A DNA stretch of 9,174 bases from Candidatus Latescibacterota bacterium (GTDB lineage Bacteria; JAAXHH01; JACQVL01), in contig JACQVL010000263.1 of NCBI GenBank assembly GCA_016209865.1, forward strand, positions 1 through 9,174, read 5' to 3'. The position numbers and the translations under genes were made by a program. Of this stretch, positions 2,425 through 9,174 are shown in pieces (the stretch's first letter is position 1; every line of letters starts with the position of its first letter). The notes under the pieces are model-generated. The model was not told where the DNA came from. It made no database searches and saw nothing but the letters and a program-made list of their open reading frames with translations.

Positions 2425-3213
2425 TCACGCCCACGCCCCTTTGGCCATCATCCCGCCGTCCACGGTCACGTATTCCCCAGTCATGAAGGACGCCTTCTCG
2501 CTGGCCAGGAAGAGCACCACCTGCGCGACCTCGTCGGGCTGGCCGATCCGGCCGAGAGGATGCGCCCGGGCATACTGCTGCCGGATCGACTGTTCATCCC
2601 CGCCGACGTACCTGATCGCCTCGTCGACGAGCGGGGTGTCGATCGTCCCCGGGTTGACCGCCAGCACCCGGATATGATCCTCAGCATACTCTAACGCGAG
2701 CTGGCGGGTGAGGGAGAGCAGGCCGCCCTTGCTCGCCGCGTACGCGGAGACTCCCTTCATCGACTGGAGTCCCTGGACGCTGGCGGTATTGATGATCACC
2801 CCACCCCCGTGCTGCTTCATCACCGGCACGCAGTATTTGGTCATCAGGAAACAGCTTTTTAGATTCACGTTGATGATGCGGTCCCACGCCTCTTCGGGGA
2901 GTTCGTGCGCAGCCGCATAGCTGGTCGTCGGTTGAATCCCGACGTTGTTGCAGAGCACATCCACCGTGCCCCACATTGACACGGCGGTGTTGACCAGACC
3001 CTGGCAGTCGCGGCTCTGGGACACGTCCGCGTGCTGGAACCGGATCTCGCCCGCCAGGCCGGCGGATTCGCTCACGAAACGTGCTCCTGTCTGGTCGTCC
3101 ATATCCGCGCAAAGAACACGCGCGCCTTCCCGGGCAAACGCCAGACCAATCCCCCGGCCGATGCCCCTGGCCCCGCCGGTGACGATCACGACCTTCTGGT
3201 TGAATGCTGGCAT
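2425..3213 (-). CDS. Short-chain dehydrogenase/reductase (classical SDR, NAD-type)
   Basis: A 262-residue cytosolic oxidoreductase that interconverts an alcohol and a carbonyl on a small substrate. All classical SDR elements are present: cofactor motif TGGARGIG (12-19), Asp37 after the second strand (favours NAD over NADP), NNVG (89-92, usually NNAG), and the catalytic tetrad Asn117, Ser145, Tyr158 and Lys162 (YAASK). PG (188-189) and a C-terminal GEYVTVDGG block follow. The frame is open back to 3300, but the start at 3213 is preferred: AAGGAG lies 6 bases upstream, the cofactor fold begins about 7 residues in, and the promoter lies inside the longer version. It is transcribed divergently from the transporter/enolase-superfamily/UxuA operon and shares its control region. 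That makes a redox step in the same pathway plausible, for example reduction of a keto-acid, but the substrate is not shown by the sequence. Confidence 0.93.
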   Translation of the reverse strand: MPAFNQKVVIVTGGARGIGRGIGLAFAREGARVLCADMDDQTGARFVSESAGLAGEIRFQHADVSQSRDCQGLVNTAVSMWGTVDVLCNNVGIQPTTSYAAAHELPEEAWDRIINVNLKSCFLMTKYCVPVMKQHGGGVIINTASVQGLQSMKGVSAYAASKGGLLSLTRQLALEYAEDHIRVLAVNPGTIDTPLVDEAIRYVGGDEQSIRQQYARAHPLGRIGQPDEVAQVVLFLASEKASFMTGEYVTVDGGMMAKGAWA

Positions 3214-3219
3214 AGTCTG

Positions 3220-3225
3220 CTCCTT
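3220..3225 (-). promoter_or_regulatory. Ribosome binding site of the SDR gene (AAGGAG)
   Basis: AAGGAG on the reverse strand is followed by a 6-base spacer and ATG at 3213. It decides the start against the longer open frame reaching 3300. Confidence 0.8.
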
Positions 3226-3256
3226 GATTGAAGGGTCAGTCTCAATGAGTCTGCCC

Positions 3257-3287
3257 ATAAATATGCGTGAACCGGTACGCATGTCAA
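3257..3287 (-). promoter_or_regulatory. Sigma-70-type promoter of the SDR gene
   Basis: Reading the reverse strand, a consensus -35 TTGACA (3282-3287) is followed by an AT-rich -10 zone. Two -10 choices exist: CATATT with a 16-base spacer (3260-3265), or TATTTA with an 18-base spacer (3258-3263). Transcription would start near 3250, giving a leader of roughly 35-40 bases before ATG 3213. The -35 is perfect and the -10 is mediocre, which is typical of a regulated promoter. Confidence 0.65.
3263..3282. promoter_or_regulatory. Candidate operator: inverted repeat in the promoter spacer
   Basis: ATGCGT (3263-3268) and its exact complement ACGCAT (3277-3282) are separated by 8 bases. The centre also holds the palindrome ACCGGT (3271-3276), one base off the main axis; a LacI/GalR-like reading GTGAACCGGTACGC (3267-3280) pairs in 5 of 7 positions. 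The element fills the spacer between -35 and -10 of the SDR promoter, where a bound repressor would block RNA polymerase. The regulator family is a guess. Confidence 0.55.
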
Positions 3288-3289
3288 CC

Positions 3290-3305
3290 CCGGAGACCAC
3301 TCCGG
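3290..3305. promoter_or_regulatory. Candidate regulator site: perfect inverted repeat CCGGAG-ACCA-CTCCGG
   Basis: Perfect 6-bp arms surround a 4-base centre, beginning 2 bases upstream of the SDR -35 box (reverse-strand sense) and over 100 bases upstream of the rightward promoter. A 16-bp dyad at this position suits a dimeric regulator acting on the SDR promoter. It could also form a small hairpin, but it lies outside any predicted transcript. Confidence 0.45.
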
Positions 3306-3416: not shown

Positions 3417-3445
3417 TTGACATTTTCTTCGTCTGACTCTATGTT
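3417..3445 (+). promoter_or_regulatory. Sigma-70-type promoter of the MFS/enolase-superfamily/UxuA operon
   Basis: A consensus -35 TTGACA (3417-3422) is followed by a 17-base spacer and -10 TATGTT (3440-3445, 4 of 6 matches). The start site would fall near 3452, leaving a leader of about 67 bases before ATG 3519. This makes the in-frame TTG 3417 and ATG 3441 unusable as start codons, since they lie in the promoter itself. Confidence 0.7.
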
Positions 3446-3518
3446 TCACGAACGTTTCGACCTGTCACCAGGAGTTTCATCCTGCACCGCACACGTTGAA
3501 CGGAGCTCGACCCCGCCC

Positions 3519-4712
3519 ATGACCGCAGGGCGCTCATCGCTCGGCCTGATCTTCACGACGGTCACGATCGACCTCATCGGCTTCGGGATCGTCATCCCGG
3601 TCCTCCCGCTGTACGCCGAGCATTTCGGGGCTTCTCCCACGGTCGTCGGGCTGCTCATGGCCGTGTACTCGGTCATGCAGTTCGTCTTCGCTCCCATCCT
3701 CGGACGGCTGTCCGACCGGGTCGGCCGCCGGCCTGTCCTGTTAGTGAGCATCGTCGGCACGTCGCTCGGCTTTCTCCTGATGGGCCTGGCGCACACCCTC
3801 TGGCTGTTGTTCATCGCCCGGATGATCGACGGCATCACCGGGGGGAACATCTCGACCGCGCAGGCGTACATCGCGGACGTCACCCTGCCGGAGGAGCGGT
3901 CGCGCGGGATGGGGTGGATCGGGGCCGCCTTCGGCGTCGGGTTCGTCTTCGGCCCGGCCATCGGAGGGGTGATGAGTCACTTTTCCTTAGCCGCGCCGTT
4001 CCTGTGCGCCGCCGGCCTGGCCGCGGCCAACGCGGTCGCGCTCTACTTCCTGCTGCCGGAGAGTCTGCCCGCCGAGCATCGCCACCCCACTCGACGGGCC
4101 TCGATCATCCAGGTGTTCGAGGAAGCCGGGAACTGGCAACTGACGACCGTGACCGTGACGTACTTCGTCGCCACCGTCGCGTTCGCCATCCTGACGGCCA
4201 CGTTTGCGCTGTTCACCCATCTGAGCGTCCATTTCTCGTACGACGCGACGCGCAATGGGTACCTGTTCGCGTACCTCGGCGCGCTCGGCGCGATGATCCA
4301 GGGCGGGCTGCTCGGCCGGTTCGTGCGGACGGTCGGCGATAAAGCCCTGGCCGTCGCGGGCACGGCCGTCATGGCCGCCAGCCTGTTCGTCCTGCCGATG
4401 AGCACGACCCTGGGGAAGCTGCTTGTCGTGATTACCGGGATCGCCATCGGCAATAGCCTGGTGACCCCCACCCTCAACGGGATCGCGTCCAGAAGCGTGA
4501 ACGCCGCCTGGCAGGGACGGGTGTTCGGGGTGATGCAGTCGGGAGCCAGCTTGGCGCGCATCATCGGGCCGGCGGTCGGCGGATGGCTGCTCGACCGTGA
4601 CGTCCATGATCACACCACCTTGTTCGGGAAAACCCCGTACTGGACGGGCGCGGTGATTATGCTCGTCGCGTCCTGCCTGGCCCTCACCATCCAGACGCGA
4701 CGCCATGAATGA
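3519..4712 (+). CDS. MFS transporter, TetA/DHA1-like (12 TM)
   Basis: A 397-residue inner-membrane secondary transporter with about 12 hydrophobic helices. Conserved marks are TM1 TIDLIGFGIVIPVLP (16-30, with the acidic Asp18 also seen in TetA), the motif A loop GRLSDRVGRRP (62-72), RMIDGITGGN plus AYIAD in TM4 (101-120), and motif C-like GFVFGPAIGG in TM5 (141-150). Length matches TetA (about 400). These features are those of proton-coupled drug or metabolite exporters rather than the sugar-acid importers ExuT/GudP, so the direction and cargo are open: uptake of the pathway substrate, or export of a toxic compound. The open frame reaches back to 3417, but the promoter covers that part; ATG 3519 gives the normal TetA length. 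A weak GGAG lies 13 bases before it. It is the first gene of the rightward operon, and the next gene begins 15 bases after its stop. Confidence 0.85.
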   Translation: MTAGRSSLGLIFTTVTIDLIGFGIVIPVLPLYAEHFGASPTVVGLLMAVYSVMQFVFAPILGRLSDRVGRRPVLLVSIVGTSLGFLLMGLAHTLWLLFIARMIDGITGGNISTAQAYIADVTLPEERSRGMGWIGAAFGVGFVFGPAIGGVMSHFSLAAPFLCAAGLAAANAVALYFLLPESLPAEHRHPTRRASIIQVFEEAGNWQLTTVTVTYFVATVAFAILTATFALFTHLSVHFSYDATRNGYLFAYLGALGAMIQGGLLGRFVRTVGDKALAVAGTAVMAASLFVLPMSTTLGKLLVVITGIAIGNSLVTPTLNGIASRSVNAAWQGRVFGVMQSGASLARIIGPAVGGWLLDRDVHDHTTLFGKTPYWTGAVIMLVASCLALTIQTRRHE

Positions 4713-4716
4713 AAGG

Positions 4717-4722
4717 AAGGAG
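4717..4722 (+). promoter_or_regulatory. Ribosome binding site of the enolase-superfamily gene (AAGGAG)
   Basis: AAGGAG is followed by 5 bases and then ATG 4728. It favours ATG 4728 over the in-frame GTG 4722, which overlaps the site itself. Confidence 0.75.
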
Positions 4723-4727
4723 TGACG

Positions 4728-6032
4728 ATGAAAGTCACAAACGTGGAACGGATCGTGGTCGACGTCCCGTTAACCCCACGGCAGATCAAGATCAGTGAAC
4801 GGGAGGTGTACAACTGGGGGATCTTCGAGCTCTGCAGAGTCACGACCGACGCCGGGCTGGTCGGCTGGGGGGAGACGGTCATCCACTACACCTGGGCACG
4901 GGTCACGGAGGCGTCGGCGCAGCGGGTGATCGGACAAAACCCGGCGGACTTGATGAACGACGATTCCTTGGGCGCGGGCCTGCAGATGGCGCTGTTCGAC
5001 GTGGTCGGGAAAGCCCTTGGCGCACCGTGCTACCGGCTGATGGGGCCGAAAGTCCGCGACTGGGCGCCGATCTCCTGGTGGTCGATCGACGCCGACCCGG
5101 ACGACTGGGCGGAAGAGGCGAACGAGGCAGTCGAGAAGGGGTACACGAGCTTCAAGATCAAGCAGCGTCCGTGGTGGGACATCTTTGCCCAGGTGGAGGC
5201 GATCAAGTGGGTCGTCCCGCCCCATTTTAAGCTCGACCTCGACGCGAACGGCACGATGCAGAACGCCGCGGCCGCGATGCCCATCATGCAGCGACTCGCG
5301 TCCTACGATATCGTGGCGATGTTCGAGTCGCCCATCCCGCAGCACGACATCTTGGGCAACCGGCAGCTTCGCCGGGTGATCGCCCGGCCGATCGCCATGC
5401 ATTTCGGCTCCCCGCCGTACATCACCGCCGTCCGCGAGGAGGTGTGCGACGGGTTCGTCATCTGCGCGGGCAAGTCGCTGGTCATGCGCCAGGGGCTGTT
5501 GAGCGCGGAGGCGAACATGCCGTTCTGGCTGCAGCTCGTCGGCAACGGTCTGACGACCACCTGGGCGGCGCATCTGGGCGCGGTGCTCAGCCACGCGACC
5601 TGGCCGGCGATCACGTGCATCAACCTGTACAGTCACCAATTGTTGACGCGCCCGATCCAGGTGGTCGGCGGGTACAACCGCGTGCCGGAGGAGCCCGGCC
5701 TGGGCGTCGAGGTGGATGAAGACGCGGTCGAACGGTACCGCATCCCGGATGGGCAGGTTCAGGAGCTGGCAAAGAAAGGCCAGCTCTACGACCATCCGAA
5801 ACGGCGGATCATTTGCACCGTCGTCTACCCGGACGGGAGCCGTGTCTATCTGGCCCCGATGCACCAGGGATACGGCTACTTCAGCGCCGGCCACGGCCCG
5901 GCGCACGTCCAGGGGGTTCGTCTCGAAGCCTGGCACGACGATGGGTCGAAGGAATGGGCGGACCTCTTCGCCCGCGCCCAACAGCATCCCGTCCGCAGCA
6001 GGGAGGCATCCGCACAAGGAGCACAGCCATGA
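4728..6032 (+). CDS. Enolase-superfamily protein (mandelate racemase/muconate lactonizing type) with C-terminal extension
   Basis: A 434-residue cytosolic protein built as an N-terminal capping domain (about 1-115) and a beta/alpha barrel (about 115-340). The superfamily abstracts a proton next to a carboxylate, giving racemases, cycloisomerases and acid-sugar dehydratases. The catalytic KxK is present (Lys143, Lys145), as are metal ligands Asp172 (LDLDANG) and Glu200 (MFESPIP). The third ligand, normally in PxAxGE or ADE, is not recognisable: PIAMHFG (221-227) places His225 or Phe226 there. The sixth strand has Cys246 where MLE-type proteins have a second lysine, and the seventh strand reads VGNGL (271-275) instead of ESG. 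The family-typical PGLGVEVDE block (323-331) is intact. About 90 extra residues follow, with strands such as ICTVVYPDGSRVYLAP (362-377). It sits 15 bases after the transporter gene and overlaps the UxuA-like gene by ATGA. Activity and substrate are unknown; an acid-sugar dehydratase or epimerase is the obvious guess. Confidence 0.88.
   Translation: MKVTNVERIVVDVPLTPRQIKISEREVYNWGIFELCRVTTDAGLVGWGETVIHYTWARVTEASAQRVIGQNPADLMNDDSLGAGLQMALFDVVGKALGAPCYRLMGPKVRDWAPISWWSIDADPDDWAEEANEAVEKGYTSFKIKQRPWWDIFAQVEAIKWVVPPHFKLDLDANGTMQNAAAAMPIMQRLASYDIVAMFESPIPQHDILGNRQLRRVIARPIAMHFGSPPYITAVREEVCDGFVICAGKSLVMRQGLLSAEANMPFWLQLVGNGLTTTWAAHLGAVLSHATWPAITCINLYSHQLLTRPIQVVGGYNRVPEEPGLGVEVDEDAVERYRIPDGQVQELAKKGQLYDHPKRRIICTVVYPDGSRVYLAPMHQGYGYFSAGHGPAHVQGVRLEAWHDDGSKEWADLFARAQQHPVRSREASAQGAQP
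6016..6021 (+). promoter_or_regulatory. Ribosome binding site of the UxuA-like gene (AAGGAG)
   Basis: AAGGAG inside the end of the preceding gene is followed by 7 bases and then ATG 6029. It decides the start, since the frame is open back to 5813 without a comparable site. Confidence 0.8.
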
Positions 6033-6997
6033 TCGAGATCGCTGAAGTCCTCAGTCCGCAGCCGTCGCCGCTCTGGAAACTGGTCAAGCAGGCGGGGATC
6101 ACTCATGTGGTCGGAACCCTGCCGTACGGCGACAGCGGGAACGAGCACCCGTGGGATTACATGCCGCTGGTGCGGTTGAAAACACGGTATGAAGACGCGG
6201 GGTTCACGCTGTCCGTCATCGAGAGCAGTCCGCCGATGGACAACATCCGGCTCGGCCTGCCGGGACGCGACCAGGAGATCGAGCACTTCTGCACCTTCCT
6301 GCGGAACATGGGAGCGTTGGGAATCCCGACCGTCTGCTACAATTTCATGGCCGGGTTCAACTGGATGCGGACGTCGACGACGATTCCCTCGCGCGGCGGG
6401 GCGCTGGTGACCGGCTACGACCATGCCTTCATGCGGAACGCGCCGCCTCTCCCGGCCGGCGTCGTGACGGAAGACCGGCTGTGGGAGAATTTCCACTACT
6501 TCATCACCCGCGTCCTTCCGGTGGCCGAAGAGGCCCGCGTCCAACTCGCCCTGCATCCCGACGACCCGCCGCTCTCCCCGATTCGCGGGGTCAGCCGGAT
6601 CATGCGAAGCCTGGATGCATTCCAGCGGGTGATCGACATCGCCCCCAGCCCGTACAACGGCCTCACGTTCTGCCAGGGCAATTTCGCCCTCATGACCGAC
6701 GATCAGCCTGCCGCCATCCGCCACTTCGGTCAGCAGAAGAAAATCTTCTTCGTCCACTTCCGCGACGTCCGGGGGACGGCCGAGAAATTCGTCGAGACGT
6801 TCCACGACGACGGCCAGACCGACATGCTCGCCTGCCTCCGCGCCTACCGGGAGATCGGGTTTGAGGGAGTGCTGAGGCCGGACCACGTCCCGACGTTAGA
6901 GGGGGACAGCAACGACCACGCCGGCTACTCGTCGATCGGCCGGCTGTTCGCCATCGGCTACATCAAAGGGCTGCGCGAGGCGGTGTACGCCGCGTAG
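6029..6997 (+). CDS. UxuA-type mannonate dehydratase homologue
   Basis: A 322-residue cytosolic TIM-barrel protein of the UxuA family, which dehydrates D-mannonate to 2-keto-3-deoxygluconate in hexuronate breakdown. UxuA landmarks appear in order: VIESSPPMDNIRLGLPGRD (63-81), VCYNFM plus GFNWMRT (102-115), ALHPDDPP (174-181), GLTFCQG (211-217), FVHFRD (241-246), RPDH (283-286) and GRLFAIGYIKGL (304-315). Metal-binding candidates His176, Cys215, His243 and Asp285 are present, with catalytic candidates His286 and Tyr300 (equivalents of residues described in Streptococcus suis UxuA). It is shorter than typical UxuA (about 350-395), and RPDHVPTLEG replaces the usual RPDHGRMIWGE, so it may act on a related acid. 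The start at 6029 overlaps the previous stop as ATGA and has AAGGAG 7 bases upstream, implying translational coupling. The family is firm; mannonate as the substrate is likely but unproven. Confidence 0.87.
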   Translation: MIEIAEVLSPQPSPLWKLVKQAGITHVVGTLPYGDSGNEHPWDYMPLVRLKTRYEDAGFTLSVIESSPPMDNIRLGLPGRDQEIEHFCTFLRNMGALGIPTVCYNFMAGFNWMRTSTTIPSRGGALVTGYDHAFMRNAPPLPAGVVTEDRLWENFHYFITRVLPVAEEARVQLALHPDDPPLSPIRGVSRIMRSLDAFQRVIDIAPSPYNGLTFCQGNFALMTDDQPAAIRHFGQQKKIFFVHFRDVRGTAEKFVETFHDDGQTDMLACLRAYREIGFEGVLRPDHVPTLEGDSNDHAGYSSIGRLFAIGYIKGLREAVYAA

Positions 6998-7021
6998 GGG
7001 TACACGGTCGCTTGCCCACAT

Positions 7022-7027
7022 GGAGGT
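7022..7027 (+). promoter_or_regulatory. Ribosome binding site of glgX (GGAGGT)
   Basis: GGAGGT lies 8 bases before GTG 7036, within the 38-base gap after the UxuA-like gene. It supports the GTG start; ATG 7020 is in another frame. Confidence 0.7.
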
Positions 7028-7035
7028 CTGGCAGC

Positions 7036-9174
7036 GTGGCTGCTCCGCCCTATGAAATCGGTCCGGGACTTCCGCGTCCGCTGGGGGCGTTTCCGGATGA
7101 GCATGGCGTGAACTTCTCCCTGTTCTCCCGGCACGCCACCGCCGTCGACCTCCTGTTGTTCGGGCAACACGACCGCCCGGAGCCGATACAGGTCATTCCC
7201 CTCGACCCGACGATCAACAAAACGTTCTTCTTCTGGCATGTGTACGTCAAAGGCGCCCGGCCGGGCCTCCACTACGCGTATCGGGTTGACGGCCCGAACG
7301 GTCCCGACGAATTGCGCCAGTACGGGCACCGCTTCAACCCCAACAAGGTGCTGCTCGACCCGTACGCGCTGGGCAACACCAACGTCCTGTGGGATCGGGT
7401 CAGCGCGTGCGGGCCTGAGGACAACATGACCACCGCCATGCGATCCGTGGTCATCGACATCTCGGGGTACGACTGGGAAGGCGACCGGCCCCTGAACCGT
7501 CCGATGAGTGAGACGATCATCTACGAGATGCACGTCCGCGGGTTTACCAAATCCCCTTCTTCAGGCTGCCGGCACTCCGGCACGTTCGCGGGGATCATCG
7601 AGAAGATTCCCTACCTGAGGGAGCTGGGCGTCACGGCTATCGAACTCTTGCCGATCTTCGAGTTCGACGAGAAGGAGATCATGCGGTGCAACCCCATCGA
7701 CGGGACCCCGCTCGTCAACCTCTGGGGCTACAGCACGGTCAGTTTTTTTGCACCGCAGAGCTGGTACTGCATGTCCCCGGAGGAAGGGCGGCATATCAAC
7801 GAGTTCCGCGACCTGGTCAAGGCGCTGCACAAAGCCGGGATCGAAGTCATCCTGGATGTCGTCTTCAACCACACCAGCGAGGGCGACCATCAAGGGCCGA
7901 TCGTCTGCTTCAAAGGCATCGACAACAGTATCTATTACCATCTTTCCCCCCAGGATAAACAGTACTATGTGGACTATTCCGGGTGCGGGAATACCGTCAA
8001 TTGCAACCATCCGATCGTGGAGAAGTACATCGTCAACTGCCTGGAGTTCTGGGTGCGGGAGATGCACGTCGACGGCTTCCGGTTCGACGAGGGGTCGATC
8101 CTGTCGCGTGGCGAAGACGGCATGCCGATGGCCTATCCCCCGGTCGTGTGGCAGATCGAGCTGTCCGGCGTCCTGGCCAACACGAAGATCATCACTGAGG
8201 CCTGGGATGCCGCCGGGCTGTACCAGATCGGCTATTTTCCCGGCTACCGCTGGGCCGAATGGAACGGCAAATACCGGGATGACCTCCGGCGCTTCGTGCG
8301 GGGGGATCACGGCCTCGTCGGGATCGTCGCCAGCCGGATCGCGGGCAGCGCCGACGTCTATCAATCGACCGGTCATCTGCCGATCAACAGCATCAACTTC
8401 ATCACCTGTCACGATGGCTTCACCCTCAACGATCTGGTCTCGTACAACTCTAAACACAATGAGGCTAACGGCGAGGGCAACCGGGACGGGGTGGACGAGA
8501 ATTGGAGCTGGAATTGCGGTGTCGAAGGACCGGCCAGCGACCCGGCCGTCGAGACGCTGCGCGAGCGCCAGATCAAGAATTTCTTCGCCATCCTGATGCT
8601 CTCCCAGGGCTGTCCGATGTTCGTCGCCGGGGATGAAGTCCGCCGCACCCAGCGGGGCAACAACAACGCGTACTGTCAGGACAACGCGGTCAGTTGGTTC
8701 GACTGGACGCTCGTCGACACCCATCGGGATGTCTTCCGGTTCTTCACGCAGATGATCGCGTTCCGTAAGCGCCATCCAATCTTGCACCGCAATCGTTTCT
8801 TGACGGGCGAGCTGAACCCGCGCGGCATCCCGGATATCACCTGGCATGGCTGTACGCTGAACCGTCCCGGCTGGGACGACCCGAACGCCCGGGCGTTGGC
8901 CTGCACGATGGGCGGGTTCGAGGGGGACGCCGACCTGCACGTCATGCTCAACATGTACTGGTCGCCGCTCGACTTCGAGATTCCCATGGTCGACGGGCGG
9001 CGATGGTGCCGGGCGGTCGACACCGCCCTGCCCCCTCCGATCGACATCGCCGAACCGGGACAGGAAGTTGAAGTGTCCGGCCAGACGTACACGGTGCAGG
9101 GCCGGAGCGTCGTCGTCCTCATCTCTAAGAACCGCTATCACAATGTCACCCTGAGCGCAGCGAAGGGTCTCAAG
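7036..9174 (+). CDS. glgX: Glycogen debranching enzyme GlgX (GH13 isoamylase type), 3' end beyond window
   Basis: Hydrolyses alpha-1,6 branches of glycogen or limit dextrin in the cytosol. 713 codons are open to the last base with no stop seen. An N-terminal CBM48-like beta domain (about 10-115, RPLGAFPDEHGVNFSLFS) precedes the GH13 barrel, which starts near ETIIYEMHVRGFT. All four GH13 regions are intact: DVVFNH (274-279), GFRFD with nucleophile Asp351, ITEAWD with acid/base Glu388, and TCHDGF with His459-Asp460. The YCQDN and SWFDW blocks and a C-terminal beta domain ending in RSVVVLIS (about 697) follow. Length is already typical (650-720), so the stop is probably just outside. The last dozen or so codons, encoding LSAAKGLK, come from a sequence resembling a dispersed repeat. 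GTG start with GGAGGT. It lies 38 bases after the UxuA-like gene, so co-transcription is likely. Confidence 0.93.
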   Translation, partial: MAAPPYEIGPGLPRPLGAFPDEHGVNFSLFSRHATAVDLLLFGQHDRPEPIQVIPLDPTINKTFFFWHVYVKGARPGLHYAYRVDGPNGPDELRQYGHRFNPNKVLLDPYALGNTNVLWDRVSACGPEDNMTTAMRSVVIDISGYDWEGDRPLNRPMSETIIYEMHVRGFTKSPSSGCRHSGTFAGIIEKIPYLRELGVTAIELLPIFEFDEKEIMRCNPIDGTPLVNLWGYSTVSFFAPQSWYCMSPEEGRHINEFRDLVKALHKAGIEVILDVVFNHTSEGDHQGPIVCFKGIDNSIYYHLSPQDKQYYVDYSGCGNTVNCNHPIVEKYIVNCLEFWVREMHVDGFRFDEGSILSRGEDGMPMAYPPVVWQIELSGVLANTKIITEAWDAAGLYQIGYFPGYRWAEWNGKYRDDLRRFVRGDHGLVGIVASRIAGSADVYQSTGHLPINSINFITCHDGFTLNDLVSYNSKHNEANGEGNRDGVDENWSWNCGVEGPASDPAVETLRERQIKNFFAILMLSQGCPMFVAGDEVRRTQRGNNNAYCQDNAVSWFDWTLVDTHRDVFRFFTQMIAFRKRHPILHRNRFLTGELNPRGIPDITWHGCTLNRPGWDDPNARALACTMGGFEGDADLHVMLNMYWSPLDFEIPMVDGRRWCRAVDTALPPPIDIAEPGQEVEVSGQTYTVQGRSVVVLISKNRYHNVTLSAAKGLK
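9144..9171 (+). repeat. Probable dispersed repeat (TGTCACCCTGAGCGCAGCG type) at the end of glgX
   Basis: The sequence TGTCACCCTGAGCGCAGCG followed by AAGGGTCTC closely resembles an intergenic element (CCCTGAGCGCAGCGAAGGG core, with CCCT/AGGG complementary ends) that I recall as repeated in many Chloroflexota and other environmental genomes. Here it begins beyond the last family-conserved residues of GlgX and extends its frame. Only one copy is in the window, so its repeated nature rests on recall, not on this sequence. Confidence 0.5.

Follow-up and report, generated by a model that had tools for sequence, protein, structure and literature searches.

A conserved histidine in the predicted third metal-ligand place of an enolase-superfamily protein linked to a UxuA-type dehydratase gene in Latescibacterota

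The enolase superfamily is the textbook case of function deduced from a fixed active-site layout. Histidine as a third metal ligand would not in itself be new to it, being already known from GalrD-II, the galactarate dehydratase of Oceanobacillus iheyensis (PDB entries 2OQY, 3ES7, 3ES8, 3FYY, 3GD6 and 3HPF; GalD subgroup in SFLD). In the 2009 paper on this enzyme, Mg2+ reportedly occupies its canonical site, where strand 5 contributes a His ligand, an arrangement said to have been described then as unprecedented, and a Tyr164-Arg162 base with Tyr90 as general acid is said to carry out the chemistry. GalD is one of seven enolase-superfamily subgroups (PMC7246345, PMC9795676), and the 2009 work is cited in PMC4191879.

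The gene considered here lies in a window (the whole stretch of DNA analyzed) of 9,174 nucleotides, from a 3.75-Mb draft genome in 356 contigs. Its open reading frame covers 4722/4728-6032 of the forward strand (Table 1). The ATG at 4728, with AAGGAG upstream, is the likely start, and the residue numbering of the original prediction, which was made from the sequence of the window, fits it. That prediction called the product an enolase-superfamily protein, and this was borne out. Both Pfam domains exceed their cut-offs (MR_MLE_C, 92.5 bits; MR_MLE_N, 26.9 bits), and the N-terminal capping domain and modified TIM barrel are present. An AlphaFold2 model built on the family alignment (mean pLDDT 92.2, pTM 0.91) was compared with solved structures, and every match listed belongs to the enolase superfamily, at Z ~34. 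GalrD-II ties for the best Z (3hpf, 34.3; 3es7, 34.2; 336-338 residues) at 24% identity, and a further GalrD-II entry, 3fyy, is among the top matches. Scores against NCBIfam equivalogs were all far under cut-off, the protein being unlike any named equivalog, and the relatives listed from a plasmid collection all share less than 30% identity with it.

Table 1. Coordinates of the enolase-superfamily gene, its predicted active-site residues and its immediate neighbors
Feature	Position	Strand	Remark
MFS transporter, TetA-like, directly upstream	3417..4712	+	not kept beside orthologues
Enolase-superfamily protein, predicted His-type third metal ligand	4728..6032	+	434 aa; in-frame GTG upstream at 4722
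K143-x-K145, end of barrel strand 2, probable proton-abstracting lysines	5154..5162	+	K143 invariant; K145 = K 43/45, H 2/45
D172-x-N174, metal ligand 1 (predicted), end of strand 3	5241..5249	+	invariant
E200, metal ligand 2 (predicted), end of strand 4	5325..5327	+	invariant
H225, putative metal ligand 3, end of strand 5 (222-225)	5400..5402	+	His 45/45; pairs with His246 of GalrD-II
C246, strand-6 position of MLE second Lys	5463..5465	+	variable
Q269, strand-7 end, aligned with the catalytic His of MR-type dehydratases	5532..5534	+	from alignment
Family-specific C-terminal extension, residues 338-427, small alpha/beta domain	5739..6008	+	no database match
UxuA-type mannonate dehydratase-like gene, conserved partner	6029..6997	+	overlaps enolase-superfamily gene end by ATGA (6029-6032)

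The residues K143, K145, D172, E200, H225 and C246 are found where they were predicted to be, as are the motifs PIAMHFG (221-227) and VGNG (271-274). In the AlphaFold2 model, the DSSP strands 141-145, 168-172, 196-200 and 222-225 terminate in K145, D172, E200 and H225. Strand 5 had been described as lacking an acid, and it does; no Asp or Glu stands at or straight after its final histidine, where the protein reads H-F-G-S. A nearby acid as third ligand was rejected, since almost every close homologue reads F-G-S at 226-228, and S228 is replaced by Glu in one of 32.

H225 was placed against GalrD-II by profile alignment and by the strand ends of the predicted model. In a profile search of the PDB, PIAMHFG was aligned on PISEHVW of GalrD-II, with H225 on His246, D172 on Asp193 and E200 on Glu221. 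HHalign repeated the H225/His246 pairing at E 2.7e-25, with 26% identity across 306 aligned columns. In E. coli glucarate dehydratase (GudD) this column is occupied by Asn, and in the MLE-type enzymes 2p88 and 2qde and in AEE by Asp. When the PDB was searched with three divergent paralogues, GalrD-II alone carried His among the alignments listed. The claim that known members need a carboxylate as third ligand was therefore overstated, given the His of GalrD-II and the Asn of glucarate dehydratase. These pairings, the invariance of the residue and its location where strand 5 of the model ends give good support to the proposal that His225 occupies the third-ligand position.

The relatives that bear names are for the most part Latescibacterota MAGs, some being labelled Gemmatimonadetes or Zixibacteria. 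Conservation was counted over 45 distinct homologues, down to ~31% identity. None has an acid at position 225. All carry histidine, paralogues at 31-33% identity included, so it reflects neither chance nor sequencing error. D241 and H282 are likewise invariant. Pairwise dN/dS is 0.07-0.31 where dS is computable, and the family is under purifying selection. Position 246, by contrast, varies: Cys occurs in 16 of the 45 homologues, the 32 closest have C (16), S (10), G (5) or N (1), and the remainder have Gly or Ser. The histidine is thus a family trait and C246 is not. A catalytic cysteine at this position was ruled out, and the idea that C246 is a meaningful substitute for the MLE lysine fails, as the C/S/G/N variation leaves no catalytic signature. 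The replacement of a carboxylate by His is real, lineage-wide and has structural precedent. Two paralogues (L004 in C338, L008 in C153) have K-x-H in place of K-x-K and keep the strand-5 His; neighboring copies of K-x-H-type genes are present in C153.

Comparison with GalrD-II shows Asp, Glu and His on strands 3, 4 and 5 in common, but differences elsewhere. Strand 2 carries R162-x-Y164 in GalrD-II, as compared to K143-x-K145 here and Lys-x-Lys or Lys-x-His in the family, and D-x-S in GalrD-II is D-x-N here. The capping loop that bears Tyr90 is an insertion in GalrD-II without counterpart in the family profile, and the C-terminal domain is an addition unmatched in GalrD-II. Among the GalD features tested, the strand-5 His is therefore present and the Arg-x-Tyr dyad and Tyr90 general acid are absent. 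Assignment as a galactarate dehydratase was ruled out on these two absences, and the protein is, on sequence grounds, not a GalrD-II orthologue. In an enolase-superfamily tree computed without the strand-5 columns, the K-x-K/H group was recovered with support of 98/95; a second clade, at 100/100, unites GalrD-II and two R-x-Y proteins encoded by the source genome. The union of the K-x-K/H group with GalrD-II is in the best tree, with weak support (69/58), and in 70% of bootstrap trees; a single and a double origin of the strand-5 His are both possible. The source genome holds both His types, since it also encodes GalrD-II-like paralogues (L071 in C236, L080 in C124) that combine R-x-Y with His on strand 5 (TLHIG, SEHVH). 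A sister clade from Latescibacterota, Poribacteria and Planctomycetota (L003, L063, L064, L065) has His-Glu on strand 8 (HELW), as compared to Ile298-Asn299 here.

MLE-type enzymes (2p88, an N-succinyl-Arg/Lys racemase; 2qde; 1muc) share K-x-K, D-x-N and E with the protein and provide both its best PDB sequence matches and its neighborhood in the tree. However, the two MLE-subgroup features tested are absent: the strand-5 Asp-Glu is His-Phe here, and the second catalytic lysine on strand 6 is replaced in the family by Cys, Gly, Ser or Asn. GudD resembles the protein in its K-x-K and in having a non-carboxylate in the H225 column, but it falls in a separate clade, and the Asn that marks the GlucD subgroup is His here. 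GudD has an MR-like His/Asp catalytic pair. That pair of the MR subgroup (His on strand 7, Asp on strand 6) is absent from the present protein, which has Q269 and C246 in those columns.

A UxuA-type gene lies directly downstream of the enolase-superfamily gene in 16 of the 16 phylum genomes examined. The adjacent protein retains the metal-site motifs HPDDPP, CxG, HFR and RPDH. UxuA mannonate dehydratase (1TZ9, 3BAN, 4EAC) matches this adjacent gene alone and is of a different family from the enolase-superfamily protein. The linkage fits a sugar-acid pathway. Uronate and sugar-acid catabolism have been described for the phylum (PMC4454575), and the Latescibacterota literature examined, that paper included, does not mention these enzymes. 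In most genomes a 62% paralogue adjoins an SDR gene, not a UxuA-type gene. The other genes of the window encode a SufS-type cysteine desulfurase (13-1296), a Gfo/Idh/MocA oxidoreductase (1302-2303), an SDR oxidoreductase (2425-3300, reverse strand) and what reads, from the sequence, as a GlgX-like glycogen-debranching enzyme (7012-9174). This context differs from that at L037, the source of an 81% homologue, and at L043, where galactokinase-like, DUF4416-like and ECF-transporter-like membrane protein genes (again by reading) lie upstream of the pair.

The protein is best read as an acid-sugar dehydratase or isomerase. In a more specific form, to which we give a probability of roughly 55% from sequence and model, it would be an active Mg2+- (or Mn2+-) dependent single-lysine acid-sugar enzyme, most likely a dehydratase. 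A single divalent ion, probably Mg2+ but possibly Mn2+, would be held by D172, E200 and H225, and the bound ion would coordinate the carboxylate of the sugar acid. Removal of the alpha proton by K145, aided by K143, would leave an enediolate stabilised by the metal, and loss of the beta-hydroxyl would most likely follow, in a dehydration with a single base and probably of syn geometry. The product of the neighboring UxuA-type gene would work in the same pathway. The fold, the residues and their invariance and the linkage of the two genes are observed; we infer the metal and its binding by H225, the base, the reaction and the substrate. With Q269 for the MR-type His and C246 in the column of its Asp partner, the lysine pair would be the sole remaining base, which speaks for single-base chemistry and makes a two-base racemase less likely. 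Against the favored reading stand the lack of the loop that holds Tyr90, the general acid in GalrD-II, and the unlikeness of the family to every named equivalog; epimerisation or cycloisomerisation is possible.

The same metal site could also support a proton shift in which no water is lost, as in an epimerase, isomerase or lactone cycloisomerase that supplies the substrate of the UxuA-type dehydratase. The operon already has that dehydratase and does not obviously need a second one, and enolase-superfamily cycloisomerases and racemases are among the structural matches. However, for two-base racemisation or epimerisation the opposite face would have to supply a base too, and residue 246 varies and Gln (Q269) stands in for His; we consider a proton shift of this kind clearly less probable than dehydration. 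The original prediction offered a different metal for His225. Such a preference would suit the D/E/H ligand set, which is common for Mn2+, Fe2+ and Zn2+, as well as the UxuA-type partner, whose relatives are Mn2+/Fe2+ enzymes. It does not follow from the histidine, however, since GalrD-II, one solved His-type relative, was crystallized with Mg according to the PDB titles, and a site that prefers Mn2+, Fe2+ or Zn2+ appears improbable.

The absent third acid might also suggest a catalytically dead or regulatory paralogue, and the enolase superfamily does include poorly active paralogues. Against this, the predicted metal ligands and the lysines do not vary across the 45 proteins (K145 hardly at all), the operon partner is conserved, and the low dN/dS indicates purifying selection. 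A dead paralogue was rejected on the invariance and dN/dS and is very unlikely; the regulatory role that had been put forward finds no support in either. Since GalrD-II sets a precedent for a His ligand, there is no need to invoke a new metal or a regulatory role. A new reaction, which had also been suggested, is possible, because the catalytic set is unlike that of GalrD-II, MR or MLE.

For the single-lysine acid-sugar enzyme favored here, what is new is the combination of a His ligand with Lys-x-Lys, an extra domain, strict UxuA linkage and the size of the family. Proteins with K-x-K (or K-x-H), D-x-N, E and His and a C-terminal domain of their own might tentatively be viewed as an uncharacterised subgroup beyond the seven recognised, whose acid-sugar reaction would be new and coupled with the UxuA-type dehydratase in Latescibacterota. 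The C-terminal alpha/beta extension, of ~60-90 residues, is kept in most of the family. Foldseek found nothing for it at E <0.001, and no Pfam score came close to cut-off; since searches of this kind readily overlook small domains, a new fold does not follow from the absent matches. So large and conserved a group that pairs a His ligand with lysine catalysis would mean that the third ligand (Asp, Glu, Asn or His) varies independently of the catalytic residues. The gene pair offers a concrete target for reaction assignment in an uncultured phylum with dozens of such genes per genome. Searched with the protein at E 0.001, the source genome gives ~30 enolase-superfamily matches, and across the phylum a first look scored 64-105 candidates in each genome, an unusual expansion of the superfamily.
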